This document shows, piece after piece, positions 3,037 through 20,985 of a stretch of DNA of 64,000 bases. The position numbers and the translations under genes are program-made. Location: positions 12,675,220-12,739,219 of the forward strand of contig CM068839.1 in the NCBI GenBank assembly GCA_028554795.2, written 5' to 3'. The stretch is from Sinohyriopsis cumingii. Lineage: Eukaryota > Mollusca > Bivalvia > Unionida > Unionidae. The notes under the pieces are model-generated. The model worked only from the letters and a program-made list of their open reading frames with translations. It was not told where the DNA came from and did not search any database. Position 1 is the stretch's first letter. Each line of letters starts with the position of its first letter.

Positions 3037-3041
3037 CCATC

Positions 3042-3455
3042 ATGCCCTTTCACACAGACGCAGCTACGTCGACCACTCCTCCTTCACCCAGTTCTTCTGT
3101 GCAAGATTTACAAAAACAACCCTTGTGGGTGTGGTGTGGAGAACGTGTGCCTAAAACGCAAATCGTCTTTTTCTGCCAAATCTTCGTGGTGTATTGTGTC
3201 ATCGGGGCAGCCATTGCCAATTTGAGTTTGCAACAAGGAGACAAACAATTGTGGACCATTTTATTGAGCAGTTGCATCGGTTACCTGCTTCCCAATCCCT
3301 CCCTGAAATTCTCCTCGAACGGGAACCACGGGAACCTTGTGTCCAGTGCCAGTGTCAGTCACCACTCCAACCATAACCAGAACCCCATTTTTGGCGGAGA
3401 CACGCCTCTGACGTCCAGTAACCCCTCGGACAGCCACAGAACTCTGGAATTATGA
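3042..3455 (+). CDS. Small Polinton membrane protein
   Basis: The open frame encodes about 137 residues from the ATG at 3,042, six bases after the integrase stop codon. It has a polar S/T/P-rich N-terminus, then WVWCGERVPK and two hydrophobic segments (about residues 40-63 and 70-90, the second ending LLPNPSLK), then a polar S/N/H-rich tail. A two-helix protein with the LLPNP signature at this place is common in animal Polintons. A role in envelope or membrane penetration is a guess. Its end overlaps the next start by four bases. Confidence 0.55.
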   Translation: MPFHTDAATSTTPPSPSSSVQDLQKQPLWVWCGERVPKTQIVFFCQIFVVYCVIGAAIANLSLQQGDKQLWTILLSSCIGYLLPNPSLKFSSNGNHGNLVSSASVSHHSNHNQNPIFGGDTPLTSSNPSDSHRTLEL

Positions 3456-4375
3456 GTCACCAAAACCAATTTTACTTAACCTTACCCAGTGACAGTTCCA
3501 TGGAGGTGTTTCCCCACAACACGTTGTGCTGTTACACGGCCAAATTACCTCAGGCCATCCCCTTAGATCACGAAGCCCATTGGGAAGTGGCTTTAGTGGA
3601 AATCATTCACCCGACCCAAGTCCTCAATGTCCTTCCCAATCAAAATTTTTTTGATGTGGAAGTTCATGACGAGCAAATGCAACAGTGGATGGATAGCAAT
3701 GTCAAATATGACAAGAAAACCCGTACGCAAAAGTACACCACCTATCACTTGTTCATTCCTCCAGGCTATTATTTTAGTGGTCAACATTTGGTCAGCACCA
3801 TAGCCTCCAGGTTTAATGTCGTGTTTCTGAAAGCTTTGGAGCATGTCAACAAAAGTGTCACCATGGAGTACCACAAAGCAGCTCGTCGCTTCTCGATGAA
3901 ATTTGAACGGAGTAAAATCATGTCCATTTTATTTTGTCCTGAATTGTTTGACATGTTGGGCGGAGACATGGACATGAGAATGGCCATGATGAAGAAAAAC
4001 GAATTACCCATCGTTTACGACAACGAGTCTTTTAGCAAGTTATTTCGTACCCCGGTAGAACTGAACCAAGGACTGAATTTGATGTTTGTGTACTCCGATG
4101 TGGTGGAGTACAACGTGGTGGGACACACCTCCGTGCCGTTACTGCGTGTCATTCCTTTCAAAGTGGATTCTGCCACGAACACTGACGAGGAAGGTGGAAA
4201 CACTTACCACGTTCACCGCGAATTTGTCCATCCTCACTATTTGCCTGTCAGTAAGTCGTATTTGGACACGGTCAACATTGCTATAAAAGGAGATCTGGGA
4301 CAAAATATTCCATTCACCAAAGGAAAAGTCACGGTGAAACTCCATTTTCGAAAACGGTTCTCTCAAGATTCGTAA
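3452..4375 (+). CDS. Penton-like minor capsid protein
   Basis: The open frame encodes 307 residues starting MSHQNQFYLTLPS. The opening (FYLTLPSDSSMEVFP, then LPQAIPL and WEVALVEI) is typical of the Polinton minor capsid protein, the single jelly-roll penton equivalent at capsid vertices. It ends in VTVKLHFRKRF, another family trait. It starts inside the end of the membrane protein gene (ATGA overlap), and the pVI-like gene follows after 3 bp, indicating a compact late capsid block. The part looks whole. Confidence 0.75.
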   Translation: MSHQNQFYLTLPSDSSMEVFPHNTLCCYTAKLPQAIPLDHEAHWEVALVEIIHPTQVLNVLPNQNFFDVEVHDEQMQQWMDSNVKYDKKTRTQKYTTYHLFIPPGYYFSGQHLVSTIASRFNVVFLKALEHVNKSVTMEYHKAARRFSMKFERSKIMSILFCPELFDMLGGDMDMRMAMMKKNELPIVYDNESFSKLFRTPVELNQGLNLMFVYSDVVEYNVVGHTSVPLLRVIPFKVDSATNTDEEGGNTYHVHREFVHPHYLPVSKSYLDTVNIAIKGDLGQNIPFTKGKVTVKLHFRKRFSQDS

Positions 4376-4378
4376 GTC

Positions 4379-4799
4379 ATGTATCCAGTGTACCGAGGGG
4401 TTGCTCGACAGCGAGGACACGGTTTAGGAGATATGTTAAAATCGGCCTTTCGTTCGGTGGCCCCGGTGTTGAAACCGATGGTGACAAGCGGATTGCACGC
4501 CTTGAAAGATGCGGCACTGACGCAAGGCAAAGAATTTCTCCAAAATGTCATCATCGACAAACAAAACCCTAAAGAAGCCTTCATGAGGGCAGGCAAAAAT
4601 GTCTTGCTGCAAACGGGCAAAGACATTTTAGGCCGACGAGACACACCTATAAATGCCCTGCACGCTACCGAGTCAGGCATTCAGCAAGGACAAGGCAGAA
4701 AGAGACGACGAAGAAAACACCCTTTCACCAGACTTCAAGCTAGGAAGAACCGTTCGAGACTTAGACGTTTTCGATTATGGAGAAAGAACAAAAATAGTG
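4379..4799 (+). pseudogene. Adenovirus pVI-like capsid accessory region
   Basis: The sequence starts MYPVYRGVARQRGHGLGDML and continues with amphipathic, Ala/Val/Lys-rich helices (SAFRSVAPVLKPM, GKEFLQNVI) and a basic block RKRRRRK. Polintons carry such a protein between penton and major capsid genes. It resembles adenovirus pVI, which cements the capsid and disrupts the endosomal membrane. The open frame runs on past 4,799, where the major capsid region begins in a different frame, so the 3' limit is uncertain. Confidence 0.6.
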
Positions 4800-6109
4800 A
4801 TGCACCGAGAGTCTTGCGCTTGTTCCAAGTCGGAACTGGATCTGTTTGCCATGCCACCTACCATGATGACGATGCAAGAATCCCAGTGGGTGGAATTTCA
4901 CCCCGTCTCCTCTTTGACGGATTCCGCTCCCATCGAGTTTGAAATCAAAGGACAGCCCGAAGATTACATCGATCTGAATAGCAGTTACTTGTACCTGAAA
5001 GTCAAAATTCTAGATAAGACTGGAGGTGCTATAGACGATGAAGCAGTAGCTCCCGTCAACAATTTCATGCATTCCTTGTTCAGTGGAGTGGACTTGTACT
5101 TGAATAACAAACTGGTCAGTAGCAGCATGGATACTTACCCTTATCGTGCCTACCTGGAAAATCTCTTGACGTACGGAATAGATGCCAAGAACACTCATCT
5201 CAATGCCTGTGTGGTATGGGAAGCTGACGAACCTACCAAGTTTGAAATATTGGAAACTGATGAAAAGAAAGACAACAATGATGGATTTGTAGAACGAAGA
5301 AAGAGAATCACGGGAGTCGACACAAGTTTAGAACTGATGGATCGTTTGCATTTGGACATGTGGTTGCAAGAAAAGTATTTGCTGAACGGGGTGGATGTCC
5401 GCCTGAGACTGAATCGTAGCAGTACCGCTTTCCATTTATTGGCTGATAGTGACGGTTACAAAACCAAAATCCAAGAAGCCAGACTCTACGTACGCCGTGT
5501 GGAAGTGTTACCTAAAGTGGGAAACGACATCAGTCAGACGTTGAGCAGAACGACCGCCAAGTATCCCATACGACGCGTGGAAGTGAAAACCTTCACCATT
5601 CCCAAGGGACAGCGATCCATGATCGAAGATCATCTGTTCCAAGGACAGTTACCCAAACGTTTGATCGTTGGTATCGTCGAGAATACAGCCTTCAACGGAG
5701 CTGCCGAAAAAAATCCTTTCTACTTTCAACACTTTGGCGTGTCCAAAATCGAAGTCAGTCGCGATGGCAAAACCTTGTGTACCCGACTTTTGAACCTGAC
5801 TTTACCAAGAAGAATTACTTGAGATCGTACTTGTCCTTGTACGAAGCCACCGGACAGTTAAGAACCAATACCAGTCACGGTATTACGTACGAGGATTATG
5901 CAGGAGGCTACGCTTTGTGGGCTTTTGATTTCACTCCAGACCAAGGCAGCGACGAGGGACATTTCCACCCTATAAAATCCGGCCAGATTCGTGTGGAAAT
6001 TCAGTTTAAAGACCGAGACCCTGATGAAACGGTGAACGTCATCCTGTATGCAGAATTCGATAATACGATAGAAATCAACAGTTTGAGAGAAGTCATCCTA
6101 GATTACTAG
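4800..6109 (+). pseudogene. Polinton major capsid protein (double jelly-roll) region
   Basis: The start is placed at the ATG at 4,800 because the following SCACSKSELDLFAMPPT matches the usual N-terminus of animal Polinton major capsid proteins (SCECVKSELDLF type). It is followed by SAPIEFEIKG, EDYIDL and LFSGVDLYLNNKLV, also family marks, and near the end by YEDYAGGYALWAFDFTPD and VNVILYAEFDNTIEI. This is the hexon-like protein that forms the icosahedral shell. Region length is normal for the family. It is treated as a fossil part. Confidence 0.85.
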
Positions 6110-6114
6110 AAACC

Positions 6115-6501
6115 ATGGAAGACTGTTGTCCCTCTTTACCTAGTGGAGAAACTTTGGACATGAAATGTGAGAAAACTGTGGAAGAAGAAGTGATCATGAT
6201 GAAGTCGAGATGGCCAGAACAAGAAGCCCATTTAGTCTCCTGTTTTGCCAAACACTTGGTCGAAAAAATGACGGAATTGATCAAGAAAAATTGCTATGGA
6301 TGTCAAAACGATCATCCCAGTCAAATTCAACACGATAAATGCCTGATGTTGAGTCAAGAAGAAAAATTGGACGAGTATCTGGACGAAGCTTGGAGTCTCA
6401 TCTCGAACAAAGACGTGTTGCATCACCGGTATAAAGACTTGCGTGAACATTCTTGTCCACCATTAACCACTCAAGAGATCATCGTATCGAAGCTCTCCTG
6501 A
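6115..6501 (+). CDS. Unrecognised small Polinton protein (CYGC motif)
   Basis: The open frame encodes 128 residues, mostly acidic and helical, with a CYGCQNDHPSQIQHDKC block (residues about 60-78) that could bind a metal. Similar CYGC..DHPSQ..H..C proteins sit next to the major capsid gene of other invertebrate Polintons. No function is known to me. It starts six bases after the capsid region. Confidence 0.5.
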   Translation: MEDCCPSLPSGETLDMKCEKTVEEEVIMMKSRWPEQEAHLVSCFAKHLVEKMTELIKKNCYGCQNDHPSQIQHDKCLMLSQEEKLDEYLDEAWSLISNKDVLHHRYKDLREHSCPPLTTQEIIVSKLS

Positions 6502-6621
6502 ATCAGAGTGAGGAAACAGAACGAATAACCGTTTATTCGTCAGACATTTTCAAGCAAAAAGTCAGGATCGAATTGACGACTTATTATTACCTGTGAAGAA
6601 GAAAAAAAGCACACACAAAAC

Positions 6622-7180
6622 ATGGATAAATGGGAACTTTATTACCTTTTGAACCACAGTTCGTATACGTCTTCTTGGAATCCTGTCGTCTGTGCTAAAG
6701 ATGAACTCCCTCATCGCAAACCTAAAGACCATCTAGCTTATGTGATCAACACGGACGACAGTCATCTCCCAGGAACCCACTGGGTAGCCGTTTACTTTCC
6801 TCAAGAAGGATGTGTGGAATATTTCGATTCGTACGGATTGCCTCCTTTGGAAGACGATATCATTGACTTTATGAGAAGAAATGCTCAGACCACCCGATTC
6901 AATAATGTGAAATTACAAGGCACAGATTCCTTGGTGTGTGGACAATATTGCGTGTATTTTCTGCATCATCGCATCCTGGGCTATTCCTTAGAACATTTAG
7001 TGACTCATTGATCCTCGTTCTTCTTCAAGAAATGATGTGAAAGTAGATCGATGGTTCTGTGACCATTATGCTTATCTTTTGTCTCAAGCTAGGAAACGTA
7101 GTGTCCATCAATGGCCTAATGATTTCCAACAGTGGAAATCACAATTTCATTCACAACGTTGTCAGCCCTGTTTAAAGTAG
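6622..7180 (+). pseudogene. Adenain-like cysteine protease (Ulp1/C5 type) region
   Basis: The sequence starts MDKWELYYLLNHS. The catalytic residues are visible: His in GTHWVAVYF, acidic residue in YFDSYG, Gln in LQGTDS and Cys in VCGQYCVYFL. This is the arrangement of the adenovirus maturation protease and its Polinton relatives, which cleave capsid precursors such as pVI and pX. Length is near the family's 200 residues if the region to 7,180 is counted. It is treated as a fossil part. Confidence 0.8.
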
Positions 7181-7291
7181 ATTGTCAATTGAGAAAAAAA
7201 TGTTTGTGATTTGAAAAAAATTGTTTGATGTTATAGTGTTGGATTATTGTTAAAAATGTTAGAGTTGTTGTTTAGTGTTAAGTGATTTTTT

Positions 7292-7297
7292 AATAAA
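7292..7297 (+). terminator. AATAAA poly(A) signal after the capsid/protease block
   Basis: AATAAA lies in AT-rich sequence downstream of the protease region and before the first short-gene cassette. It suggests that the late block ends in an ordinary polyadenylated mRNA, unlike the cassettes that follow. Confidence 0.45.
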
Positions 7298-7424
7298 AAA
7301 TGTTGTGTTTTGAAAAAAATGCCTTTGTCTTTTGTTTAGCTATAAGAATGTTGGATTGATGCTCTTTCATTTCTTACTATCCCTCTCATGACACTCACTG
7401 AACGTTACGACGCGAAAACCGTGT

Positions 7425-7466
7425 GGGGGATGTTTTCCTTCACGTCCGTGCTTTGACTTTAAGAAC
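7425..7466 (+). promoter_or_regulatory. Cassette promoter module 1
   Basis: GGGGGATGTTTTCCTTCACG is followed by a TCCG(C/T)GCTTT(C/G)ACT block and a TATA-like CTTTAAGAAC, about 50 bp before the ATG at 7,518. The same module precedes two further short genes (8,293 and 9,069), which marks it as a shared promoter. Confidence 0.65.
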
Positions 7467-7517
7467 CGGGGTTGTTTCCAGTCTAACCATCCATTGTCGA
7501 CTCATCCTCCTAAGAAG

Positions 7518-7889
7518 ATGTGCTCCAAACTAGCTAAGCTCAACGAAGCCTACGTGAATTTGCATAGGGTCAGACACAGTCTGATACCGAAGCCAGAAGA
7601 AATAGAGAATGTGAGAATGTTAAAAATCACTGAGGACCTGATAGAAGAGCTCTTCAGAGAAGAAATGAACAGGGAAAAAGAAGAATGGACAGAGAAATAC
7701 AGACTTCATAGACAGCAGAAGCAACAGCAACAACAACAACAACAACAACAACAGCAGCAGCAACCTGAACCTGACAGAGGCTTTGTCGATTGTCGTATCG
7801 ACACCAAAGAGTTCTTCTTCTCTTTCCGAAGAAGCAGACCTATCGCCAGAAAGTCTATCCTCAGAGGACATCGCATTCTTAGAAACTAA
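7518..7889 (+). pseudogene. Cassette 1 short protein region (coiled coil, poly-Q)
   Basis: From the ATG at 7,518 the sequence begins MCSKLAKLNEAYVNLHRVRH. An acidic/basic helical stretch (EDLIEELFREEMNREKEEW) and a CAA/CAG run coding poly-glutamine follow. The first about 40 residues resemble in character the N-termini of the next two cassette genes (short leucine-rich helix, then charged helix), so the three look like diverged duplicates. The function is unknown. The region lies between a cassette promoter and a histone-type 3' stem-loop. Confidence 0.45.
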
Positions 7890-7916
7890 AAAGAATGCCA
7901 TAGCAAACAAAAAAAC

Positions 7917-7938
7917 AGCCCTTTTCAGGGCTACCCCA
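7917..7938 (+). terminator. Histone-type 3' stem-loop, copy 1
   Basis: AGCCCT, loop TTTC, AGGGCT, then ACCCCA. The loop and stem lengths equal those of replication-dependent histone mRNAs (GGCTCTTTTCAGAGCC). A purine element GAAAAGAAA starts 14 bases after the stem, where the U7 snRNP binding element lies in histone genes. Confidence 0.7.
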
Positions 7939-8292
7939 ATACTCTAGAAAAGAAATAACCATCAATTTGCCAATGTGTGTAGGTAGAGTAGTGTGAATAT
8001 AAACACTAACTCTTTATTGATAGTGAGAGTGTATGTGTTTGTGTGTTTGTGTTTGTAACAGTTCACGTAAGTTTGTGTGAATAGTAGATTAAAATAATGT
8101 CTTTTTTTGGTGTTTGAGGTGTATATTTGGGGTTAGATTGGATTGCTTTGCGTATGTAAATAGTCTATTGAAGTGATTTATAAAAAATTTTAAAATGGTG
8201 ATGGGTAGCATAAAAAAGTGAGTGAGTGTTTCTTTTAGGTCCGTGCGTTGTTTCTTTGGTCATGATCTAGGTAAGATCAATTTTATGTTTTT

Positions 8293-8332
8293 AGGGGGAT
8301 GTTTTCCATCACGTCCGCGCTTTCACTATAAA
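8293..8332 (+). promoter_or_regulatory. Cassette promoter module 2
   Basis: GGGGGATGTTTTCCATCACG, TCCGCGCTTTCAC and TATAAA (8,327-8,332), 58 bp before the ATG at 8,390. Upstream, 8,238-8,292 is repeated almost exactly at 9,014-9,069, showing that the cassette was duplicated with its promoter. Confidence 0.7.
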
Positions 8333-8389
8333 TTGAAACTCGCTCGGCAGTCTAGCTACCCTTGTTGATTGATCAACACCACCAGAAGA

Positions 8390-8719
8390 ATGAACACCAG
8401 AATTGTGAAACTGTTAGAACTCCAGATGCACCTGGAATATGCCAGGCGCATACTAAATGAACTGGCCGCGGAGGCCATTGTCGAAGAAGCAAGAATGAAA
8501 GAGGAGGAGGAGGAGGAGGAAAGAAGAAAAGAAGAGGAGAGAAGAAACAAAGAAGAGGAGGAGGAAAAGGAGAGAAGAAGAAATTTCAGAATCCCAGAAA
8601 CCGAAAATTGGGATTCTGAAGCCACATATCCTGCCTCTGCACTCCCAAGAAGAAAGGTGAAAGGAGACTGGGGAAGAAGATGCGTGTGTGGCGCCAGGCC
8701 AGGAAGGTGCAACCATTAG
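8390..8719 (+). CDS. Cassette 2 short coiled-coil protein
   Basis: The open frame encodes 109 residues from the ATG at 8,390. A leucine-rich helix (IVKLLELQMHLEYARRIL) is followed by a long E/K/R run, a polar part, and a tail with CVCGARPGRC. The charged run is low complexity, so it predicts helix, not homology. It has the same promoter module and 3' stem-loop as its neighbours. The function is unknown; it could be an early, S-phase-linked accessory gene. Confidence 0.5.
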   Translation: MNTRIVKLLELQMHLEYARRILNELAAEAIVEEARMKEEEEEEERRKEEERRNKEEEEEKERRRNFRIPETENWDSEATYPASALPRRKVKGDWGRRCVCGARPGRCNH

Positions 8720-8755
8720 ATAGGTGCATCTGGAGTTCAAAAAAAAAAAACCAAC

Positions 8756-8776
8756 AGCCCTTTTCAGGGCTACCCA
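8756..8776 (+). terminator. Histone-type 3' stem-loop, copy 2
   Basis: AGCCCT, loop TTTC, AGGGCT, then exact ACCCA, the context in which histone pre-mRNA is cut. GAAAAGAAA starts 13 bases after the stem. It lies 37 bp after the cassette 2 stop codon, a normal histone spacing. Confidence 0.75.
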
Positions 8777-9068
8777 ATACTCTAGAAAAGAAATAACTAT
8801 TAATTTGCCAATGTGTGTAGGTAGAGTAGTGTGAATATAAACACTAACTCGTTTTTTCATTGTGTGAGGGTATGTGTTTGTGTGTTTGTGTTTGTAAGAG
8901 CTCAGGTATGTTTGTGTGAATAGTAGATTATGGGTTTATTTATTGTTTCTTAGCGTATGTGGAGAGTATAGTTTTGGTTTTATTATACGAAATGAGAAAG
9001 TAGGGGATGTTTTCCTTCACGTCCGCGCGTTGTTGGGTCATGATCTAGGTAAGATCAATTTTATGTTT

Positions 9069-9108
9069 TGGGGGATGTTTTCCTTCACGTACGCGCTTTC
9101 ACTATAAG
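9069..9108 (+). promoter_or_regulatory. Cassette promoter module 3
   Basis: GGGGGATGTTTTCCTTCACG, TACGCGCTTTCAC and TATAAG (9,103-9,108), 46 bp before the ATG at 9,149. A second, TATA-less copy of the upper part lies at 9,003-9,030. Confidence 0.7.
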
Positions 9109-9148
9109 AACCCACAGTATTCGTCGTTCAAACCATTCTACAAAGAAG

Positions 9149-9496
9149 ATGGCTTCTAACCAAATTCACAAAATGCAAACATTGCAAGACGTTTTGGACA
9201 ATTTAGGAATGATGGAGCAGATGTTAATAAGACTCGTTCAAGACCACTATTCCTATAGTCCCCATCGTGTAAAGATGGAAATTAATAACTTAAGAAAGGT
9301 AAAGGATATGATAAGTGGTGTCATGAAAGAGATAAAGGAGGAGAAGGAGGATGAAGAGGAAAGGATAAGAATACGCAAATGGAACGAAAAAATTGAAAAA
9401 GAAGAAGAAAATGAGAAGAGGAAGAAAGAAGAGGTGGAAGAGAAGAAGAAAGAAGAGGAAGAGAAAAAAAGAAAGAAAAGAAGAGAAAGAGTGTAG
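9149..9496 (+). CDS. Cassette 3 short coiled-coil protein
   Basis: The open frame encodes 115 residues from the ATG at 9,149 (MASNQIHKMQTLQDVLDNLG). An N-terminal helical part of about 60 residues is followed by a long K/E/R low-complexity run that goes on outside the frame as GAA repeats. The start is chosen because it follows the TATA box by 46 bp. It is paralogous in layout to cassettes 1 and 2. The function is unknown. Confidence 0.5.
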   Translation: MASNQIHKMQTLQDVLDNLGMMEQMLIRLVQDHYSYSPHRVKMEINNLRKVKDMISGVMKEIKEEKEDEEERIRIRKWNEKIEKEEENEKRKKEEVEEKKKEEEEKKRKKRRERV

Positions 9497-9577
9497 GAGA
9501 TAAAATAAGAAGTTGGTGGAGAAAAAGAAGAAATTAGAAGCAGAAGAAGAAGAAGAAGAAGAAGAAGAAAAACCAAA

Positions 9578-9614
9578 GGCCCTTTTCAGGGCCAGCCATA
9601 TTTCTCGAAAAGAG
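9578..9614 (+). terminator. Histone-type 3' stem-loop with downstream element, copy 3
   Basis: CCAAA, then GGCCCT, loop TTTC, AGGGCC and AGCCA; GAAAAGAG starts 13 bases after the stem. It fits the histone consensus including the CAAA 5' flank. GAAAAGAG can pair with the CUCUUU of U7 snRNA. Confidence 0.8.
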
Positions 9615-9659
9615 ATAGCCTTTCAATTGCCTACCCTTTTTTTAAATATTTTTTAAAAA

Positions 9660-9842
9660 AAAAACAAATCCCATGTTCAATTCCCCTTGTCCCTAGACAA
9701 TCCCAAACTCTATGTTAAATTCCCATTGTCCCTAGAGTGGCCCAGCGTTTTTCTCCATGTTAAATTTCCATTGTCCCTAGAGTGGCCCAGGGGTGTTTTA
9801 ATGGTAATTCCCATTGTCCCTAGGGTGGCCCACCTTACTACT
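9660..9842. repeat. Right terminal repeat of Polinton A
   Basis: Blocks of CCATGTTAAATTCCCATTG plus TCCCTAGAGTGGCCCA repeat four times and end GTGGCCCACCTTACTACT. This matches, block by block and in the same orientation, the ends of the other Polintons in the window (15,780-16,119 with 23,311-23,336; 23,100-23,310; 23,400-23,524). It is therefore a true right terminus and not an internal spacer. Confidence 0.7.
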
Positions 9843-9843
9843 A

Positions 9844-12800
9844 TTACACAATTTGATAGACTTTTTCCAAGGGTCGACTGACGATGTGGTGAGTGGGTAA
9901 ACGTACAATCTTGTTCGGCTGGTAGGTGGTCACTTTAAAGTGTTCATCTTCTCTAGACTGCAAAGCTTCTTTCAATACGCCAAAGTTCACCACTCGACTG
10001 GTACGATAATTCAGAGTCAATCCTTTCACTTTACACGTCGTGTGCACTTCTTGTTTGTCCCGGTATTCGTAACCGTAATTTTTAGGACCGCCACTGGCGA
10101 AACTTAGAATCTTGTCGTCGGGGTGCTCGTCTGTCCAGGCTCCTAAAAGGTCTCCTTCGATGTCAGGGTGCTGTTGACTCGGGTGATAGATGTAAATGCA
10201 ACTGTCCGTGTCAAAGTACAGGACACGTTCTTCTAACAGTTCTAAAGCTTCGTACAATTTTAAGCGAGCATGAGCTGTCACGTAATCCGCAATGATGACG
10301 TTTCCAAAGGGGTCGTCTTGTACAAAGTCCAGATCTTCTTCGTAATTCACTAAGATCAAATCCTCGCGAACGACGTCCACGTGTTTCATGAATTTGGTTT
10401 TGTCATGAATCATCTGGAAGTAGCGGGAAGGTTCGGTCAAATATTCCGTCTTGGGAAAACACGGTCGTTGTGCCATTTTACCCCACAAGCAATTTAACAT
10501 CACTTTGGCAAACGATCGCCTGCCTTCGTTTTTCTCGATGTGGTCTAAAGTAATGCCTTCTTCTGCCCAGTATTTCTCTTTGAATGTTTTTTGGTCTTCG
10601 GGAGTGTGACACCAGGAAGGATAGCCACTGGCTTCTTGCTTCAGTTTCAAAAAGGCATCCACGTAGTCTGCGAAAATGCCTTTCTGCGTGGGGTCACCCT
10701 TGTGGTATTGTTGTGTCTTGGAAAAGTGGCAAATTTCGTACACATCTAACAGTTGGTATCCCATGTCCAGAGCTTTGAACAATGCTACGCTGACCCACGT
10801 CCCCGTCAAGGCCCGTTCTTCCTGGGTGTGCTGACAAGGTTGGTCTGGGTTGCACGTTTCGGCACAAGTACGGCACAAAGGAAACATCAGTTTGTCTTGA
10901 CAATGGTGAGGTAACACGGGATGGTACAAGTCCGTGGGAGGCAAAACTTTGCACTTGATCAAGCCTTCGTATTGTCGAATGTTTTTCAGGTCGATGTGTT
11001 CCGTTAACAATTGCGGGTGCCCTACAGGAAATCGGCAATATTTGCACACGTAGCGATACAGAAGTATTTGATTTCTTCTCCTTTCTCTTCGTCGGCTTGG
11101 TACAGCAAACAGGTGGCATTGGTCCTTCCTCCGTACACACTATCCCTCGGGTTCAGGGGGTCCATGAACTGGTAACTTTCCACGAGGCGTTTAAACTCGG
11201 GATCGGTTTTCAAACGGTGATCGTACTCGTGTTCCCACATTTCCACCACTTGGTATCCTTCTTGTTCTAACTTTAGGCGTCGCTGACAAGTGTCCTGGTA
11301 CAAGTCTTCCATGGTTCGTTGTAAAAACTGATTTTTAGTGCCGCGGTCAGGGTAGCAGACGGGGCATCCGTGGAATAAGCAACCGTTAAACTCGTACACG
11401 ATCTTGGGGTTTTCTAAGTCCCAGCCATCGACCAAATGCGTTCCAATGGTCTTTTCGCCCCCTCCGTTGCGGGCATGCTGAATCCATTTGTCTTCCTTGT
11501 CGAACAAGTAACCTAACCAGCGTAGGGCTTTGACCGAGTATTGACGTTTGACATAGTTGGTCGTTTGAGGACTGATGACAGCCACGGTGTTTTCAGGCAT
11601 GAATCGTTGCCTGTACACTAAGGAACACGCTTTGGCAATGGTGCAAGCTTCTTTCAAAGGATCGACCCCTCCATGTTCCATGAACAGTTCTCGAAATTTT
11701 CCACAGGAACTCCGTAAAATGTCCACGTCGGAGCGACAATACTTTAGCATTTCTTCCTGAAAGTCAAAAGGGTCTGAGGCGTGAGCCTGGTACCAAGCGT
11801 AGAAAGCGTCTCGTTGTTCGGTACGCATGTTGTCGGGGTCGTAATAGTGAGCCTCAGGCAAATGGGGTAGAATGGCGTGTTGATTGGCTTCCGTATTGAA
11901 AAAGTGTGGAAAGTACCCTTTAGCCATTTCTGTCATTCCAAACGTTTTAGGCATTCGACTCAAAGGCATGGTCAAATAGCTCATCGAATCTTTAAACTGT
12001 ACTTGTCCCACTTGCATGAAAATGATTTTGGCTCCGTTCAAAGTCACTTTAGGACGTTCGGTGCCATGTTCCATATAGTATCTCAACAGAAACTGTCCAT
12101 CGTATCCGGAGAAATTGTGAGCCATCACTGTGGCCTGGCGATGATAATCTTCGTAACGTTCAATGTTCTCTTGGCTCCACGTCTTGTCGATGGGGTCTAA
12201 GACCCATTGTGCGAAATCGGCTAGCGTGTTCGGCCCTCGAAAGATTTTTTCACGCCCTCCAGGAATCTTGCTGCAGTGAGGGCAATGACTGAAAATAGGT
12301 TCTTGAATGCACTTCTCGCACGCTCGATGAGCCACGCAGAAATTAGGGATGTGAATGCCGGTCTCTTGCATGCATTCGAAATCGAAAAAGATGAAATTGC
12401 CTTTTTTCTTGTGTCCATCCTCTTTCTCTGGTTGGGATTGGTATTTTTGCACGTAGCATTGGTGTTCCAAGTCCACGATGTGGTGACAAATGTGACATTT
12501 TTTCTTTCTTGAACATACGTGTGCCTTGGCATTATTGGTACGTATGCCTTGGCCACACGTAGGGCACAATCTCAGCAGTTGACAAGCAAATTTCTGCTGT
12601 GAACCTTGCGTCTTCAAATGTTGTTGGTAACAGGCAGGGCTGACAAACGTGCGCAGACAAGCAGAACAATGCACTGGTTCTTGTCCTTCGTTCAGACAGG
12701 GTGGAGAGGCCAAACATCCTGAGCATTTCGATCCACAATGCTTGTGTTGCTCTCGATTGTTATAACCATAGTCACATTTCTCACAATAGTATCTGTATCC

Positions 12801-13004
12801 CAGGAATCCACTGATACTGGTAATGGTATCAAAATGGTCATCGTGATGATAGAGGTGAATGTATTTTCCATCTTTAAAGTCTTGGCCTCGAAACAACAGA
12901 GGCCCGCGTACTTCTTGAGGGTACACTTTCAAGGTGTAGCGTGGAGCTAGGATATCTTGCAATTTTTGCATTTCAGGAATGCCACAGGGTTTTTCTTTGG
13001 GCAA
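9844..13004 (-). pseudogene. Protein-primed DNA polymerase B (Polinton pPolB) region
   Basis: From the N-terminal side the region shows several CxxC/H zinc-binding pairs, then the 3'-5' exonuclease motifs (Exo I FFDFEC, Exo II HNFSGYDGQF, Exo III YCRSDVD). Next comes the inserted endonuclease-like domain typical of Polinton polymerases (YEFNGCLFHGCPVC and VVEMWEHEYD). The palm follows, with motif B-like KVMLNCLWGKM and motif C YFDTDSC. It would copy the linear element from a protein primer. The last residues seen are EKVYQIV; relatives continue with a short YDKR...PFGY-type tail, but here the gene stops one base from the terminus of Polinton A. This is a fossil part. Confidence 0.9.
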
Positions 13005-13013
13005 GTCGGCTTG

Positions 13014-13799
13014 TTACAACAGGAGTTCTGCTTCTTTTCGTTGTTTGGCTCGGTCTGATTTTCGAATGTTCTCCCAGGCTCTTTTCCATTCTGTCGTGTC
13101 GTTTTTGTCGACATAGGTTCGTCCCACCACAATGGCACGGGCTAAACACATCAGGTCCTGAGGGTTGTTAATTCGGACGAGGCTCTTTTTGGTGGTGCGA
13201 AGGTCGTTCACCAATAAGACCTTTTTGCGGCCAGTCCCTTGAGGAGGAGAGACGTGGGTCATGTCCAGTGTGGCTTTTCCATCGGTGATGTCAAACTGGT
13301 CATTGGATTGTTGCACGTTTTGAATCTTGTCCATGACTTTGGAAGCGGTCAATTCTGCAGGGCTGCTAAACTCGATCCAAACAGGGGATTTCAAACCGTC
13401 GTGTTGTATGGAAAGTCTCAAGCGATCGTCTTCTTTGGGTTGACATTGTCGCTTGAGTGTGGCAAGCAAAGAATCCCACATGTCGGTGATGAACCCTTCT
13501 GCTTTCTCTAACGGTACTTCGGACTTGAAATCTTTAAACTTCACCGTGTATTTGTAAGGCGTGGTTCTAAATTTTCTAGAGGGACGCTTTTCCGTCTCTC
13601 GAATGTCATAGTACTTTTCAGGGTTGACTAAGGGCGGTGAACTTTGTTTAGAGGGTTCGGATTCTGGTTCACTCATGTCCTCTTCAAAATCACTGGCATG
13701 AATATGTGCTAAGACTTCAGCCCTGGTACGAGGCGATAGATCACGTTTCTGCCTCTTACTTTCTTCTTCTTTCTTCTTGAATGAATTGGATCGTTTCAT
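13014..13799 (-). CDS. Unrecognised gene upstream of pPolB
   Basis: The open frame encodes 261 residues. It has a basic N-terminus with a likely nuclear signal (KKKEEESKRQKR), an acidic patch (DFEEDMSEPESEPS), then a folded part with FRTTPYKYTVKFKDF, SPVWIEFSSPAELTASKVMDKIQ and a C-terminal basic helix. It ends ten bases before the polymerase ATG on the same strand, so the two may share a transcript. A protein of this type precedes many Polinton polymerases. It could be a terminal (priming) protein or replication partner, but that is inference from position only. The start follows the divergent promoter at about 13,800-13,930. Confidence 0.6.
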   Translation of the reverse strand: MKRSNSFKKKEEESKRQKRDLSPRTRAEVLAHIHASDFEEDMSEPESEPSKQSSPPLVNPEKYYDIRETEKRPSRKFRTTPYKYTVKFKDFKSEVPLEKAEGFITDMWDSLLATLKRQCQPKEDDRLRLSIQHDGLKSPVWIEFSSPAELTASKVMDKIQNVQQSNDQFDITDGKATLDMTHVSPPQGTGRKKVLLVNDLRTTKKSLVRINNPQDLMCLARAIVVGRTYVDKNDTTEWKRAWENIRKSDRAKQRKEAELLL

Positions 13800-13870
13800 C
13801 TTGATAGCAACACGTCAAATGACTAAAGTTTAAACACCATGGACTAATTATAGTCATGGCAGACCAGTGT

Positions 13871-13879
13871 ATATAAAAG
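13871..13879 (+). promoter_or_regulatory. TATA box of zinc-knuckle gene
   Basis: TATATAAAAG lies about 60 bp before the ATG at 13,933. The interval between 13,799 and 13,933 separates this gene from the divergent gene on the minus strand, so it probably serves both. Confidence 0.6.
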
Positions 13880-13932
13880 GGTGTGTGTCTTGTCCTTTCA
13901 CTATTCATTTCAGTCTCAAACCGCGCACAACG

Positions 13933-14370
13933 ATGGAAGAGTCTACACAAATCAAACGTTTCATCAGAGCTTTGCGAGGGGTCATTAGAAAATTCTCTTC
14001 AGACCAGCCAACAGACTACTCTCCTTCCTTGCGAGATAAAAGTCAAGATACTTGCTATATCTGTCAGAAGAAAGGGCATTGGTCTTCAGAGTGTCCAGAC
14101 CGTCAAAAAAGAAAAAAAGGGGTTAGAAAAGACAAAAGTCAAGATACCTGTTATCATTGTCAAGAAAAAGGACATTGATCTCTAGATTGCCCAAAAGAGA
14201 AACAAGAGGAGTCAGAAGAAAAGAGGGATTCTTCAGAGGAAGAAGAGGAGGAAGAAAGCAGACAGGTGAAGAAAAAGAAACAGGAGAAGAAAAGAAGAAG
14301 GGAAGAAAGTGAGGAGGAAGAGGAGGAAAAGACTGTAACGGTGAAGAAATTCAAAAAACAGAGAGACTAA
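13933..14370 (+). pseudogene. CCHC zinc-knuckle protein region
   Basis: The sequence starts MEESTQIKRFIRALRGVIRK. The first zinc knuckle is CYICQKKGHWSSEC (CX2CX4HX4C), and a second starts CYHCQEKGH about 30 residues later; a long E/K/R-rich run follows. Zinc knuckles bind single-stranded nucleic acid, so a role in replication or packaging is possible. A decayed copy of the same promoter and gene lies in Polinton C at 20,190-20,750. This is a fossil part. Confidence 0.6.
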
Positions 14371-14445
14371 ACAATGAGACAGAAGTCTATGAACTTTTTA
14401 AACTGCTCTGTTGTGAATTATGAATTGGATTAATATTTATAAAAG

Positions 14446-14451
14446 AATAAA
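14446..14451 (+). terminator. AATAAA after zinc-knuckle gene
   Basis: AATAAA lies 76 bp after the zinc-knuckle region. No stem-loop of the histone type is present here, so this gene appears to use ordinary polyadenylation. Confidence 0.45.
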
Positions 14452-14582
14452 TTAGGCATAAAAAGGTAAGTATCTTAGGGTTTTGATTTTAAAATAAGAA
14501 CGTACACTCACACATTCATACACACGTACTATAGGGGTAAAATGGGGTTTCTTTTGAGTTATTGGCAATTGAAAGTCGATCA

Positions 14583-14617
14583 CTTTTCGAGAGACGTGGG
14601 TGGCCCTGGAAAGGGCC
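14583..14617 (-). terminator. Histone-type 3' stem-loop on minus strand, copy 4
   Basis: Read on the minus strand: AAA, GGCCCT, loop TTCC, AGGGCC, then exact ACCCA, and GAAAAG starting 13 bases after the stem, followed by CTTTCAATTGCC as at 9,620 and 15,730. It lies downstream of the minus-strand short gene at 14,885-15,212. Confidence 0.8.
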
Positions 14618-14884
14618 TTTATTGGTGTAGGGGTGAGTTTAAGCAATCAACTTTAACTGTCTTAAGCCTTTGCCACGGCCAAGGCCTACTTCTGGACTGC
14701 GTACTGTTGATGATGATGATGATTTGGTTGAAATCACTAAGGGTGGCACGGTAGGCTTAGTCACAGGGTTGGAGTGTTTAGCTGGGGAAGGTCGTATTCT
14801 CTTCGGTCGTAATAAAGAAGTCTGATACATTTGTTTCAGACTTCTTAACTCCGCTAAAATGTCTAACAGTACCGTGACCGTTTG

Positions 14885-15212
14885 ATTTTCACATCCTTGT
14901 TTCTTTGCTGCTGCTTCTTCTTCTTTTTGTTTCTTTTCTTACCTCTTCTTCTTGCTGTTGTTGCTGTAGAAGAAAAGCTTGTTCCGCTTCCTTTTGCTGT
15001 TGTATAAATTTCTCCAATTCTTCTTTCTGTCTCTGTCTAAAATTCTCCACGTGCGGTAAAGAAGAAGGTGACGAAGGTTCCGGAACAAATTCTTGCGAGG
15101 TAAGAAAATCCACAAAATCCCAATTCACCTCTTCTGAAAGTAAGTCCGGGTTCCCTTGGGTGGTCTCCACTGCTGGGGCACCCTAATGTATCGTTTTCTG
15201 AGTTTCCGTCAT
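14885..15212 (-). pseudogene. Minus-strand short Q/E-rich protein region
   Basis: The reading frame encodes an acidic part (NPDLLSEEVNWDFVDFL) followed by a coiled-coil with RQRQKEELEKFIQQQKEAEQ and a glutamine run, ending KETKRRRSS. It has its own TATA box (TATATAGA, 15,261-15,268) and ends in a histone-type stem-loop about 270 bp downstream. The function is unknown. It is divergently paired with the gene at 15,432. This is a fossil part. Confidence 0.5.
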
Positions 15213-15224
15213 GTTGAAAAACTG

Positions 15225-15425
15225 TCACATTGATTGACTGCACACAGGCGCTAGCGAATCTATATAGACCACGTGACGTCACAGACTGCTCTCTTCCGAT
15301 TGGACGTGAGCTGACTGAATTTTGTAACGCGTGTTTGGATTGGTCATTGAACTCAATCCGTTTCAATCCTTCCTCTACCTATAAATAAGCGCAGTTCACT
15401 GCATTGAGTCACCTGTTCTCGGCGC
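15225..15425. promoter_or_regulatory. Divergent promoter with TATA, CCAAT and CRE motifs
   Basis: On the minus side a TATATAGA box lies at 15,261-15,268; on the plus side TATAAATA lies at 15,380-15,387. Between them are an E-box CACGTG (15,270-15,275) overlapping a CRE TGACGTCA (15,274-15,281), and inverted CCAAT boxes (GATTGG at 15,298-15,303 and 15,338-15,343). TGAGTCA (AP-1-like) lies at 15,404-15,410. Divergent TATA plus CCAAT plus CRE is the build of animal histone gene-pair promoters. Confidence 0.65.
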
Positions 15426-15431
15426 CTCAAC

Positions 15432-15662
15432 ATGTGGACGGACGTTCAATCTTCTACGCTTGTGTCTTCGATGATGTTCAGGACGGACATACCGATGTAT
15501 GTCCGATCCAAGTGGACTGTTGTCCATAGGACCGACACCAACCTGTGGATACGTAGGATTTACGTGGAGAGGCAAGGATGCCTCAAAAGAGTTTTAGTCT
15601 ATGGACCTACCATTAGACGAAGCCTAAGACGAAGAAGATGTTGCAGATGCCCTTTATGTTAA
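15432..15662 (+). CDS. Short arginine/cysteine-rich protein of Polinton B
   Basis: The open frame encodes 76 residues from the ATG at 15,432, 45 bp after the TATA box. The body is V/R/Y-rich and the C-terminus is RRSLRRRRCCRCPLC, which suggests nucleic acid binding or a metal-binding tail. It is not a histone by sequence. A histone-type stem-loop follows 24 bp after the stop codon. The function is unknown. Confidence 0.55.
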   Translation: MWTDVQSSTLVSSMMFRTDIPMYVRSKWTVVHRTDTNLWIRRIYVERQGCLKRVLVYGPTIRRSLRRRRCCRCPLC

Positions 15663-15685
15663 GGGCATATTAACACAAACCCAAA

Positions 15686-15722
15686 GGCCCTTTTCAGGGC
15701 CACTCCAATCTCTCGAAAAGAG
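15686..15722 (+). terminator. Histone-type 3' stem-loop with downstream element, copy 5
   Basis: CCAAA, GGCCCT, loop TTTC, AGGGCC, ACTCCA, with GAAAAGAG starting 13 bases after the stem. The whole block from here to 15,745 is nearly identical to 9,578-9,640 at the end of Polinton A. Confidence 0.8.
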
Positions 15723-15779
15723 ATAGACTTTCAATTGCCTACCCCATTTTTTTATTTTTTTATTTTTTAAAAAAAACAA

Positions 15780-16119
15780 AAAAATAGAGACCTATCAGGT
15801 CGGGACCATGTTAAAATAGGGTCCCGACCCTGTCCCATTTCCCCTAGTCCCTAGACAGACCCAAACTCTATTCCCATGTTAAATTTCCCTTGTACCTAGA
15901 ATTGCTATTTTTTTTTCTCCCATGTTCAATTCCCCTTGTCCCTAAAGTAGTTTTTTTTCTCCCATGTTAAATTCCCCTTGTCCCTAGACAAGCCCAAAAT
16001 ATATTCCCATGTTAAATTCCATTGTCCCTATAGTGGTATGACAATATTGCCCATGTTAAATTTACATAGTCCCTATAGTGGCCCACGGGTCTTTTTAATG
16101 GTAAGTCCCATTGTCCCTA
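15780..16119. repeat. Right terminal repeat of Polinton B, first part
   Basis: Repeated blocks of CCATGTTAAATTCCCCTTG plus TCCCTAGA with T-rich spacers. The repeat is cut at 16,119 by Polinton C and resumes at 23,311. A small hairpin, GGTCGGGACC and GGGTCCCGACC, lies at 15,799-15,830. Confidence 0.65.
16114..16119. repeat. Target-site duplication of Polinton C, left copy
   Basis: TCCCTA directly before the left terminus AGTAGTTAAGTGGG. The same six bases follow the right terminus at 23,311-23,316. Six bases is the Polinton target-duplication length. Confidence 0.85.
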
Positions 16120-17125
16120 AGTAGTTAAGTGGGCCACTTTACCGTCAATGGGAATTAGCATTACAAGACCCCTTGGGCAACTCTAGCGTCAAGGGAAATT
16201 TAACATGGAGAAAAATCGTGGGCAACTCTAGGGACAATGGGAATTTAACATAGAGTTTGGGTCTGTCTAGCGACAAGGGGAAATTAACATGGGAATAGAG
16301 TTTGGGTCTGTCTAGGGACAAGGGGAATTGAACATATGGAAATTGAACATGGTGGGTCTGTATAGCGTCAAGGGGAATTGAACATGGTGGGATTGTCTAG
16401 GGACAATGATGGTAGAGGGTCAAACACAACAGAGACAGAAACATACATACACTAGTACAAGCGTGAGATTTATATATAAAGCATTACCAAGACCTGAAAT
16501 CTTGCTGGGGTGTTCAAAAATTTGCATAATTGTAATGATGCTATAAATAGCTATAATCAAGGAAATGCTCAACGACAAAATGGATGTGACTAAAAGTAAC
16601 GTTAAAATGACGAAATTGTCCCAGAATTTAAAGGAAAATAAACATATCCCCGAAAATTAAGTTACAATGGTTTAGACTAAAATGGATAAAATTAGTAACT
16701 ACTTACAATATCAACTTCTGTGACGATCGTGAATAAATACCTATGTATCTATAATCAGCTGAAATTCCTATGAAATCCCACTATCTATTTATAGCTCCAA
16801 CTTGTGGGTTTTTCCTTTGGAAAATCCCACTATCTTTTTATAGCCTCAGCTTGAGTGACGTTCCTGTTTATGAATTCTAGTATATATGTATAGCTACAAA
16901 ATGTGGAAATGCCCAAGTCGATATTTATAGTCTCAAAATTTCCAGCGTCAGTGACGTCACTGTACTGAACACTAGGGGATAAATGTCAACAGTGTTGCAA
17001 GTGGCTGACCTGAATACACGCTACTGCAGGTAGATAGGTAGAGTGTATCTGATAGGGATAAAGTGAGTTTTTATAGGGACAAACAGAGACCAATACACAC
17101 ACACACAACGTACGCGCGCAGACAT

Positions 17126-17162
<37 letters not shown>

Positions 17163-17430
17163 GAAGAGGAAAAAACAAACCCCAAATATACTATCAATAC
17201 AGAAGGGAGATAACACAAACCCCAAATAAACTATCAACACAAACGTACGCGAACGCATACAAACCCCAAATATACTATTCACACAACGTCGCTAACGCAT
17301 ACAAACCCCAAATATGCTATCCACACTCGGGAGGAAGAAGAAAAAACAACCAAATATACGATCTACACAACGTACGCGAACACACACACACACTCACACA
17401 CAGAGGGAAGAGGAAAAAAAAGCGATTGCC
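16120..17430. repeat. Left terminal inverted repeat of Polinton C
   Basis: Starts with the TCCCTAG/CCATGTTAAATT block repeats in reverse orientation (to 16,420). A unique part follows with several short repeats (CCCACTATCTTTTTATAG type, 16,760-16,860). The end is an (AC)n-rich subterminal array with CAAACCCCAAATATACTATC units. It mirrors 21,960-23,310. Confidence 0.85.
17095..17430. repeat. Subterminal (AC)n and CCAAATATACTATC array, left
   Basis: Contains (AC)n tracts, the ACGTACGCGC/ACGTACGCGAAC element and repeated CAAACCCCAAATA. Long open frames here only reflect the simple repeat. Confidence 0.7.
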
Positions 17431-17439
17431 ATAGCTTCA

Positions 17440-17905
17440 AGTTCCCCAAAAGAATTTCAGGGCTACCCCATACTCTCGAAAAGAAATAACATTCCATTGC
17501 CTATGATATGTTAGTCAGTTAGAAGAAAAAATACAGAAGTGAGTCTATCAGCACATGATTTCTTTATCTTGGTTAGAAAGTGTGACTCTAAGTTGTTCGT
17601 TTCCGTCGCTTATCAAAATTTTAAAAATAGTAATGTTCTGTAAAAAGTGAGTGAGTGTTTCTTTTAGGTCTGTGCGTTTTTTGTTTTTTTTTTTGTTTTT
17701 TTTTGTTGGTGATAATATGGATAATGTAAGTTCGGGTACAACGAAATTTAAAGAATTAGGCCCAGAACTCGGTGTGGAGGGAAGAAATATACGCAACAGC
17801 AGCGGGAGTAAGAAATGCAGACCTAGCCAGTTAGCACTGAGGCATTCTGCGTTTGACAATGCCTTTGATGTCGTACACGTCGTCTTTTTTGGTGACACGA
17901 CTTGA
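17440..17905. pseudogene. Relics in Polinton C: stem-loop half and integrase fragment
   Basis: 17,458-17,500 keeps the right half of a histone-type 3' end (TTTCAGGGCTACCCCA, then TCTCGAAAAGAAA). 17,840-17,905 on the minus strand matches the integrase linker before the chromodomain (compare 2,860-2,925). Both are fossils of the parent Polinton. Confidence 0.6.
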
Positions 17906-20140
17906 TTTGAAATAAGTACGGGCTAGCGTTTTGGTGAGTACTTAACATCCATGGCTGTCTTGCTGAGCACCTTTTTCCTCCTTTACCACGCTCGGACAGA
18001 AAAATGAGTGTGTGGTGAGACAATTCCCACTCATGTTTAAAGCCTTTCAGCCAGGTTGTTAAGGACTAGTTAGTCCTACACCTGATTGGCTAAATTTAAA
18101 AGTAGTCTGTGAGTACATAAAAACCTGGGGGATGAGGCTCTCTTTCCTTCCCCAGGAGTAATTAAAAATCACGCGGTGCGTTATTAAACCAGTGATACAT
18201 GCTCCATTAGAGCGAAAATCACTTTAATTCAAGTAAGCAAGCAAGCAAGTTCGGGTACCGTCTCTAGCACTCTTGATGACACCAACTGTCTGGGTTATTT
18301 TCTTTCTTGCAAGCCCCTATGTTCCACTTCTGTTTGTGATAATAACTTGTGATACTTCACATTTTCTAAAGTGGAAATCTTTACAAGCCGTACAAAATAC
18401 AAAACTTATATGACTTTGGCTTTTGACACTTGCACAGACTCTTCACTTTATAAGTGTCACGAGAAAATTGTATATCCCATTTTTACCATTTTCAAAAACA
18501 CGCACACACTTGCAGCTTGACCAGAAATATGTACATCTTGTTTTGTGGATAAGTCACAGACAAGTCCAAGCATATATAGGTGGTTATGAACGTTAGGAAT
18601 ATCCCCTCATTTTTTCAGAAATATCAAAGCTTGTATGTACATTTTCCCTTTTCCACTTTATATTAGTGCTTAGATTTGTTCCAAAAAAAAAAAGAAAAAA
18701 GAAACGAAACAATTTTGAAGAAAAAGAAACAACTGAATTTTGAATTCAGGTTTCTCTCTGTTTATAATTTTTTTCAAGTTGATGGTGCATGACAGAGTAC
18801 ATTCGCCTACCTTTCCAAAGTGAGAGGCATTTCTTCACATGTCATTGCCTTTGTTAAATTCGGTTTCATTGGTTAGTTATCGTTAATCTTTAATTTTTTT
18901 CATGCATTTCTTTTTGATAGAAGATTTAAGGCTTTCTATTGTTGTAACGGTATTTATGTTGTTTAGTCTGTTGATGAAATTATCTATAGCAAAGTGCTTA
19001 AGATTTTTCAGTTTCTTTTATTATTTCAAGCCCTACAAAAGGAGACCAAGTTTGTCTTCAAAGACGATTGAAACTCTAAATTACACGGGCGTGAAGGAAA
19101 ACATCGTTGTGTTTGATCTAATCATGCTTGCCGTATCTCTTTGTGTTTTAGAGGTCATATTTCTTCTTAAGTAAATACACGCATCAGTAGACAGACAGAT
19201 TGGGTCATCATCCTTGAGTTTCACTGTACTTTCGGTTCTTTACTTCATACAAGCCCCAAATTTATTAGTTTGAAAACGAAAAGATAACATGCCCCTCAGT
19301 ACTGTAACACGTCTGTTCTGACTCTACCGATGTGAGTGTGAGTGTTTATGTCGAATGTTTAAGTGAGATATAAAAAAATGGTCAGTTTGAAAACGCGAAC
19401 CAATACTGTGACGCTCAGTATTTTGATGTGGTAAGAGGAAATGGTACAACACACACAAAGAGGGCTTGTAAGTTCACATTTCAGTCTGTCTGCACTGTAA
19501 TGGTAACAACGCAAGAACATAGGGATTATTATGTCACATAGTCCTAGAACAAAACAATGCATCACCCGTTGTAAGCCATTTCATTGGCTATACTTATTTT
19601 CTTACCGCGTTCGCTTCGAATTGACTTGAGTAGCTATTCAGACAGTGACGAGAATGGCCATGCTTTACTGGGTCTATCCTATAGGCGATTTATATAAAAA
19701 AAATATTTTTAAAAATTAAACTAATGCACGAACATTCGTACCATGGGCGATCCCATGGAAATTGTGTCCGTCTTATTGCAAAATACATCAACATTTAATT
19801 TAACCGTGCAGATCGCTAGAACAAACCTCTGATAATATACATTTTGAAAAGTGTTGTGTGACACGGATCGCCATTATCGCTTGGTGTCTGCTTTCTTGTT
19901 CGAAAAGAGATCGTTTCGTCTTGACTATAAAAATTTAATTTGACTAAGTTTTACGCACTACTTGAACTCATACATTTACGTTGTAGGTGTAAGCCGTCTT
20001 TCTCAGTTTTCTGGAAGTTCCTTTTTGCGTTTCTCAGATATGATACTATTTTTTATGGACCGAACGAAATTTCTTTTGGCGTGAATCAGGACTCGTGGTT
20101 TTGTGGCATGATTGGAGAGCATTGATTAAAGCCCAGTTAT
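17906..20140. other. Interior of Polinton C without recognisable genes
   Basis: AT-rich. Around 18,105-18,215 there is a promoter/poly(A)-like stretch (ACATAAAAACCTGGGGGATG, AATTAAAAATC) ending in GCAAGCAAGCAAG at 18,237-18,250, which might be part of a solo LTR; no matching second copy is present. A 91-residue hydrophobic open frame at 18,902-19,174 has no supporting signal. I see nothing else. Confidence 0.4.
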
Positions 20141-20189
20141 GTCGTCTTCGAAATCGCTGACACGGATTTGAACTAACACTTCAGGTTTT

Positions 20190-20956: not shown

Positions 20957-20985
20957 GAAGGATGTTTTCCTTCACGCACGCTCTT
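20957..20985 (+). promoter_or_regulatory. Remnant of cassette promoter module
   Basis: GGATGTTTTCCTTCACGCAC resembles the module before cassettes 1-3 of Polinton A. No gene follows. It shows that C descends from the same Polinton group. Confidence 0.45.

Follow-up and report, generated by a model that had tools for sequence, protein, structure and literature searches.

We analysed a stretch of 64,000 nucleotides from the freshwater mussel Sinohyriopsis cumingii (Unionidae; GenBank assembly GCA_028554795.2, contig CM068839.1, positions 12,675,220 to 12,739,219 of the forward strand; hereafter the window) and identified in it the right part of a Polinton (element A), a second Polinton (element B) and a non-autonomous third (element C) nested in the terminus of B. 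Short genes of A (n = 3, sites 1-3) and B (n = 2, sites 4 and 5) are followed by stem-loops with the build of the 3' ends of replication-dependent histone mRNAs (Table 1). Such ends are generally considered almost exclusive to replication-dependent histone genes. A preliminary description of this DNA had proposed that genes of one Polinton carry them. Covariance model, geometry, chance control and conservation support the proposal, and the sites do occupy both strands of Polinton DNA; they are spread over two elements and do not belong to a single one.

Stem-loops, chance controls and conservation

All five sites lie where they had been placed and have a Watson-Crick stem of 6 bp and a 4-base loop, TTTC in four cases and TTCC in one. 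GAAAAG starts 14 bases past the stem at site 1 and 13 bases past it at the other four. Each site is in the sense orientation, 3' of a short gene and 21-81 bases past its stop codon (27, 36, 81, 23 and 21 bases at sites 1 to 5, respectively). The flanks are looser than first described: CAAA precedes the stem exactly at two of the five sites (AAAC, CAAC and TAAA at the rest), and ACCCA follows it exactly at two, the remaining A(C)CCA-like contexts being ACCCC, AGCCA and ACTCC. A second hairpin, seen by eye over the downstream element, was compatible with sites 3 and 4 alone and was discarded.

The scan with the Rfam model RF00032 that the preliminary description had suggested listed all five sites and rejected none. 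Two of them score above the gathering score of 34 bits (matches at 9573 and 15681), and three fall below it (8751, E 3.3e-5; 7912, E 2.7e-4; 14622-14577 on the minus strand, E 0.0025). The window holds 137 six-bp stems with a 4-base loop of any sequence per strand, and those with GAAAAG 9-18 bases further on, four on the plus and one on the minus strand, are exactly the five sites. In sequences simulated from the first 16 kb of the window, a strict pattern (6-bp stem, TT(T/C)C loop, GAAAAG 9-18 bases on) gave one match in 400 first-order and none in 400 third-order simulations, against five observed; a looser pattern gave 13 and 17 matches per 400, respectively, again against five.

Pairwise identity around the sites was calculated for the ten possible pairs, with random medians of 0.36-0.48 for segments longer than 5 bases. 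Sites 1 and 2 have an identity of 0.80-0.93 past the signal and represent a recent duplication. The older pairs have high identity from +1 to +57 and are near random outside. Between the two sites of B, identity is 0.43 and 0.47 upstream, 0.94 in the stem-loop, 0.79 in the spacer, 0.86 in the downstream element and 0.86 in the next block, followed by 0.26 and 0.49; the corresponding values for sites 3 and 5 are 0.40 and 0.43, 0.94, 0.69, 0.79 and 0.86, followed by 0.38 and 0.52. Sites 3 and 4 keep some likeness up to +100 (0.66) because both run into an element tip. Likeness of the stem and of GAAAAG is partly built in, since the sites were chosen by them. Spacer and next block were not criteria and have identities of 0.57-0.79 (random 95% value 0.57) and 0.64-1.00 (random 95% value 0.56), respectively, across the nine older pairs. 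The block ends in TTGCC at every site. The stem is paired in all five, and its sole variable pair is the outer one (G-C in three, A-U in two).

A decayed sixth copy of the signal was found in element C. R1, a model built from the five sites, matches it at 38.9 bits (E 1e-6; 39.1 bits without filters), and blastn aligns it to sites 1, 2 and 4 at 84-87% across 50-53 columns; RF00032 has no match there. As the signal is present in A and B and, decayed, in C, we regard it as a property of a group of elements.

Table 1. Sites, genes and Polintons, in window coordinates
Feature	Position	Strand	Details
Stem-loop 1, element A	7917..7932	+	AGCCCT-TTTC-AGGGCT; RF00032 29.3 bits at 7912-7956
U7-type downstream element of stem-loop 1	7947..7954	+	GAAAAGAA
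Stem-loop 2, element A	8756..8771	+	AGCCCT-TTTC-AGGGCT; RF00032 31.7 bits
Downstream element of stem-loop 2	8785..8792	+	GAAAAGAA
Stem-loop 3, element A	9578..9593	+	GGCCCT-TTTC-AGGGCC; RF00032 35.6 bits, above gathering
Downstream element of stem-loop 3	9607..9614	+	GAAAAGAG
Stem-loop 4, element B	15686..15701	+	GGCCCT-TTTC-AGGGCC; RF00032 35.9 bits, above gathering
Downstream element of stem-loop 4	15715..15722	+	GAAAAGAG
Stem-loop 5, element B	14602..14617	-	GGCCCT-TTCC-AGGGCC; RF00032 26.7 bits
Downstream element of stem-loop 5	14581..14588	-	GAAAAGTG
Decayed sixth signal copy, element C	17441..17509	+	5' arm decayed; 3' arm, spacer and downstream element still present
Short gene before stem-loop 1	7518..7889	+	123 amino acids, glutamine run; Pfam and PHROGs matches weak
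Short gene before stem-loop 2	8390..8719	+	109 amino acids, highly charged; Pfam match weak, PHROGs none
Short gene before stem-loop 3	9149..9496	+	115 amino acids
Short gene before stem-loop 4	15432..15662	+	76 amino acids, net charge +12, Arg/Cys-rich tail; no Pfam or PHROGs match
Interrupted gene before stem-loop 5	14639..15212	-	Stop codon and frameshift; divergent from the 15432 gene
Promoter-like block, element A	7428..7470	+	Starts with GGATGTTTTCC; similar blocks at 8297 and 9073
Divergent promoter region between two B genes	15213..15431		219 bases
Polinton A, right part	1..9842	+	Integrase 1927-3036, major capsid protein 4653-5822, protease candidate 6622-7011; left end outside window
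Polinton B	9843..16119	-	Polymerase broken off at 9844, CCHC gene 13933-14370, terminal genes; beyond C the terminus picks up again at 23317-23336
Nested non-autonomous Polinton C	16120..23310		AG..CT ends, inverted repeats of about 1.2 kb, target site duplication TCCCTA on both sides

Small genes and the Polintons that carry them

Judged by their predicted products, the genes ended by the stem-loops are not histones: the histone family is absent from the Pfam lists for four of the products and for two pieces of the fifth. The product of the 9149 gene is identical at 68 of 81 residues (84%) to a protein of the unionid Sinanodonta woodiana, the sole similar protein found. The product of 15432..15662 has the tail RRSLRRRRCCRCPLC and, as an impression only, recalls small DNA-condensing proteins. 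An inverted repeat of 20 bases (95%; 8414-8433 and 8722-8741) pairs the start of the stem-loop-2 gene with its 3' untranslated region. Several genes in the window are broken, with the polymerase in open reading frames (ORFs) of different frames and in-frame stops in the CCHC gene and the minus-strand gene.

The GGATGTTTTCC blocks of element A lie 90, 93 and 76 bases 5' of the three start codons, and additional blocks of this kind occur at 9005 and, in element C, at 20960. The region between the divergent B genes contains TATA-like boxes in both directions, TGACGTCA, CACGTG and two CCAAT boxes, in a layout that we take to be like that of divergent histone gene pairs. Neither AATAAA nor ATTAAA occurs between stop codon and stem at four of the five sites. 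Among 12 other ORFs, four have such a poly(A) signal within 300 bases past the stop (polymerase piece, CCHC gene, ORF 1271 and protease candidate, at 42, 77, 88 and 281 bases, respectively); for the remaining eight, mostly tightly packed genes, the next one is 473 to 4256 bases away.

In the integrase of element A, Pfam recognizes rve at 53.8 bits together with Chromo at 32 bits. The minus-strand protein-primed DNA polymerase (pPolB) of B matches DNA_pol_B_2 with two of its pieces (57.5 and 28.1 bits). The major capsid protein (MCP) has 1664 related proteins. Among the best 120 of these the named ones are mostly bivalve F54H12.2-like, and a sea cucumber and a bacterial metagenome-assembled genome (MAG) contribute hypothetical proteins. 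A sequence comparison of the MCP with the PDB gave nothing at E below 0.06. Its predicted model, with a mean predicted local distance difference test score of 66.7, is similar to the capsid proteins of Sputnik (E 4.1e-7) and mavirus (E 2.5e-6) at template modelling scores of 0.26-0.40. The candidate for the adenovirus-type protease is a weak match to Peptidase_C5 (16.2 bits, cut-off 21.3).

Element C has the ends of a Polinton, i.e. AG..CT ends, inverted repeats and a 6-bp target duplication, and starts with AGTAGTTAAG and ends with CTTAACTACT; A and B have one end each within the window. The last 175 bases of C are 86% identical to 9669-9842 (blastn, query cut at the ends of C), and immediately past the common ACTACT the sequences of C and A diverge. 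Because the likeness to the end of C stops there, past ACTACT, we take 9842 as the right terminus of A. The polymerase frame of B breaks off at this junction. Among 40 pPolB relatives listed, 19 align to the last residue of B; all 19 extend 17-48 residues further (15 of them by 17-21) and continue with Y or F, one residue and KR. The simplest reading is that A was inserted within the pPolB gene of B, with a breakpoint that may be off by a few bases, as a stop codon in B immediately adjoins the junction. ATTACA at the junction (9842-9843) might be a target duplication, the left end of A lying outside the window. The terminus of B reads through C, in that 15676-16119 joined to 23317-23336 aligns to 9568-9842 of A over the whole distance between stem-loop and tip, apart from some additional sequence in B. 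Within C, a CCHC-like ORF (20231-20728) is related to the gene at 13933-14370 of B.

Known 3' ends and other Polintons

In animals, the histone stem-loop is recognized by SLBP and the downstream element by pairing with the U7 small nuclear ribonucleoprotein (snRNP); cleavage between the two is most likely carried out by CPSF73 (PMC1924863, PMC7026596). Mouse H2a substrates have a UUUC loop and, as deduced from the variants printed in PMC7026596, AAAGAG 16 bases past the stem. Our sites share with them the TTTC loop and AAAGA(G/A) 15-16 bases past the stem at four sites, with AAAGTG at site 5. Histone genes of the bivalve Lucina pectinata have such stem-loops, and purine-rich elements accompany some of them only (PMC6210712). 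Further points in common with metazoan histone 3' ends are the 6-bp stem, the A-rich 5' flank, the A(C)CCA-like 3' flank, a purine element about 15 bases past the stem, the short 3' untranslated region, the short genes and the divergent pair in B. The sites differ from them in ending non-histone genes of virus-like elements, in being conserved to TTGCC, about 57 bases from the stem start, and in the outer A-U pair at two sites. The nearest functional parallel is the Sputnik virophage, 16 genes of which end in the hairpin poly(A) signal of mimivirus (PMC6723459). There, as may be the case here, a parasite bears the 3'-end signal of the system that transcribes it; the signal is a giant-virus poly(A) hairpin in Sputnik, whereas here it would be the histone signal of the animal host.

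Elements A to C resemble bivalve Polintons/Mavericks in the rve-chromo integrase, pPolB, double-jelly-roll MCP, AG..CT ends and 6-bp target duplication, and differ from the Polintons available for comparison in their histone-type 3' ends. An MCP search of genome contigs recovered three contigs of animal Polintons that are binned with bacterial MAGs, apparently as contamination: L005 (Bathymodiolus symbiont), L006 (Escarpia endosymbiont) and L007 (Breoghania). Their capsid identity is 43-46%. By eye, L005 (21,002 of its 31,929 bases) and L007 have capsid-module genes and no pPolB, and L006 ends just past the protease. Next to the capsid gene of L005, 11734-11798 shows weak similarity to the type-P1 twister ribozyme (28.9 bits against a gathering score of 67.2, E 0.028). 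A viral contig collection held no relative of the MCP (searched as single sequence and as alignment) or of pPolB (as alignment). Pattern scans of it returned four loci, none with a stem, in contigs that are phage-like by their ORFs; a scan for the stem pattern gave one match in the phage-like contig L008, where the other strand reads as a terminator-like hairpin behind a neighbouring gene. These candidates were rejected, and the scans of the collection gave no stem-loop followed by a downstream element. No report of histone-type 3' ends in Polintons, other DNA viruses or transposons was among the literature matches listed, which cover the field in part.

Interpretation and alternatives

RF00032, the geometry and the chance control support a reading of the sites as histone-type 3' ends. 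We consider it likely that a Polinton lineage in a bivalve host provided its small genes with SLBP/U7-type 3' processing signals, and that active ancestors used them; the claim concerns ancestors because the genes are broken in the copies seen here. RNA polymerase II would transcribe a small Polinton gene in the nucleus of the host, SLBP would bind the stem-loop and the U7 snRNP would pair with the GAAAAG(A/T)(G/A) element, perhaps also with a further CAATTGCC-like block. CPSF73 would then cut between stem-loop and downstream element, leaving a short, non-polyadenylated mRNA that would be stable and efficiently translated while SLBP is abundant, i.e. during DNA replication. From sequence we infer that the sites could be bound by SLBP and U7 and processed in this manner to ends lacking poly(A). 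Going by the pathway, the genes may have been timed to S phase or to histone-rich germ or embryonic cells. True histone-type processing seems most likely because the sites come close to the geometry of the mouse H2a substrates and bivalve histone genes have such stem-loops.

Several observations weigh against this interpretation. The three sites below the RF00032 gathering score have already been mentioned, and the stem was lost in the sixth copy. R1 gave false matches in L008 (27.6 and 25.0 bits; E 0.0006 and 0.003), for which reason its E-values are generous. The compensatory change of the outer pair is single and maybe one event, and 57 of 500 shuffles score equally high. Conservation is not clear for the five bases 5' of the stem, whose identity in the ten pairs is 0.40-1.00 against a random 95% value of 0.60. 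AATAAA occurs in the 5' flank of site 5 and ATTAAA lies 199 bases past the stop of gene 1, so that poly(A) may have been used. Pairing with U7 small nuclear RNA (snRNA) was compared for the Drosophila sequence (PMC7026596) and for that of mouse; both are foreign to the host and make a poor test. Drosophila U7 pairs unusually well at 9578 and 15686 only (8 and 6 of 500 shuffles as good), the other three sites being matched by 224, 203 and 60 of 500 shuffles, and mouse U7 stands out at none of the five (64 to 344 of 500). The preliminary description had named missing conservation in related Polintons as a ground for refutation. The comparison covered three distant, incomplete Polintons, and the signal is absent from all of them (RF00032 at E up to 1; R1, with weak matches in L005 only, E 2.8 and 3), a weak negative because the contigs are incomplete in the relevant parts. 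As far as seen, the signal is not general to Polintons and is so far limited to the elements of the 64-kb window.

An idle capture is the first alternative: a single recombination event would have brought in a host histone 3' end, which then multiplied as Polinton ends were duplicated, without being put to use. Sites 1 and 2 go back to a single recent duplication, sites 3 and 4 align onward to the element tips, and the copies in the window have broken genes and one decayed signal, all of which would suit it. We nevertheless regard it as unlikely, in view of the spacer and next block (+17 to +57), which are conserved in the older pairs while farther flanks are near random, and of the five sites, all still in sense directly past short ORFs. 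A hairpin of the elements' own that directs polyadenylation or termination in the style of mimivirus and Sputnik, merely histone-like in appearance, would agree with the general kinship of Polintons and virophages. It is very improbable, given that the match is specific to the histone stem, loop and flanks, that a spaced purine element would be superfluous for such a signal, and that neither an RNA polymerase nor a poly(A) polymerase was named by Pfam among the ORFs and pieces examined, which come from elements lying partly outside the window. We find it hardly credible that the stem-loops are DNA-level palindromes, such as replication, packaging or integrase sites near the tips: sites 3 and 4 do lie about 265 and 455 bases from an element terminus, at the inner edge of the common terminal region, but sites 1, 2 and 5 are internal, orientation follows the gene at all five and the downstream element is one-sided. 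Chance hairpins, of which the terminator-like hairpin of L008 and the four stemless loci are reminders, are refuted as far as the controls go by the strict simulations and the two RF00032 scores above gathering, and retain next to no probability.

If the preferred reading of SLBP/U7-type signals is true, the S-phase RNA pathway of animals is open to a lineage of mobile DNA viruses, and the sites offer a test, provided by nature, of the signals that are enough for entry. From the conserved block one could then predict the 5' end of a bivalve U7 snRNA; in the host, this end would be expected to be complementary to GAAAAGAG and preferably to CTTTCAATTGCC as well. A further proposal, to which we assign even chances, is a freshwater-mussel Polinton clade with two classes of expression. 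Capsid, integrase and polymerase genes would have ordinary 3' ends, and the small genes, including those nearest the element tips, would have SLBP-U7 ends without poly(A) and expression limited to replication or to germ and embryo. The small genes would then be made when the element can replicate and transpose, and the host would have a U7 snRNA with a long 5' end able to pair with GAAAAGAG and the CAATTGCC block.

Two minor features lie to the right of these elements. A terminus-like sequence behind B (23493-23524), ending in CACTTCACTACT, is perhaps a remnant of another Polinton. The flanking host DNA contains long ORFs at 43068-47551 that are retroelement-like by eye.

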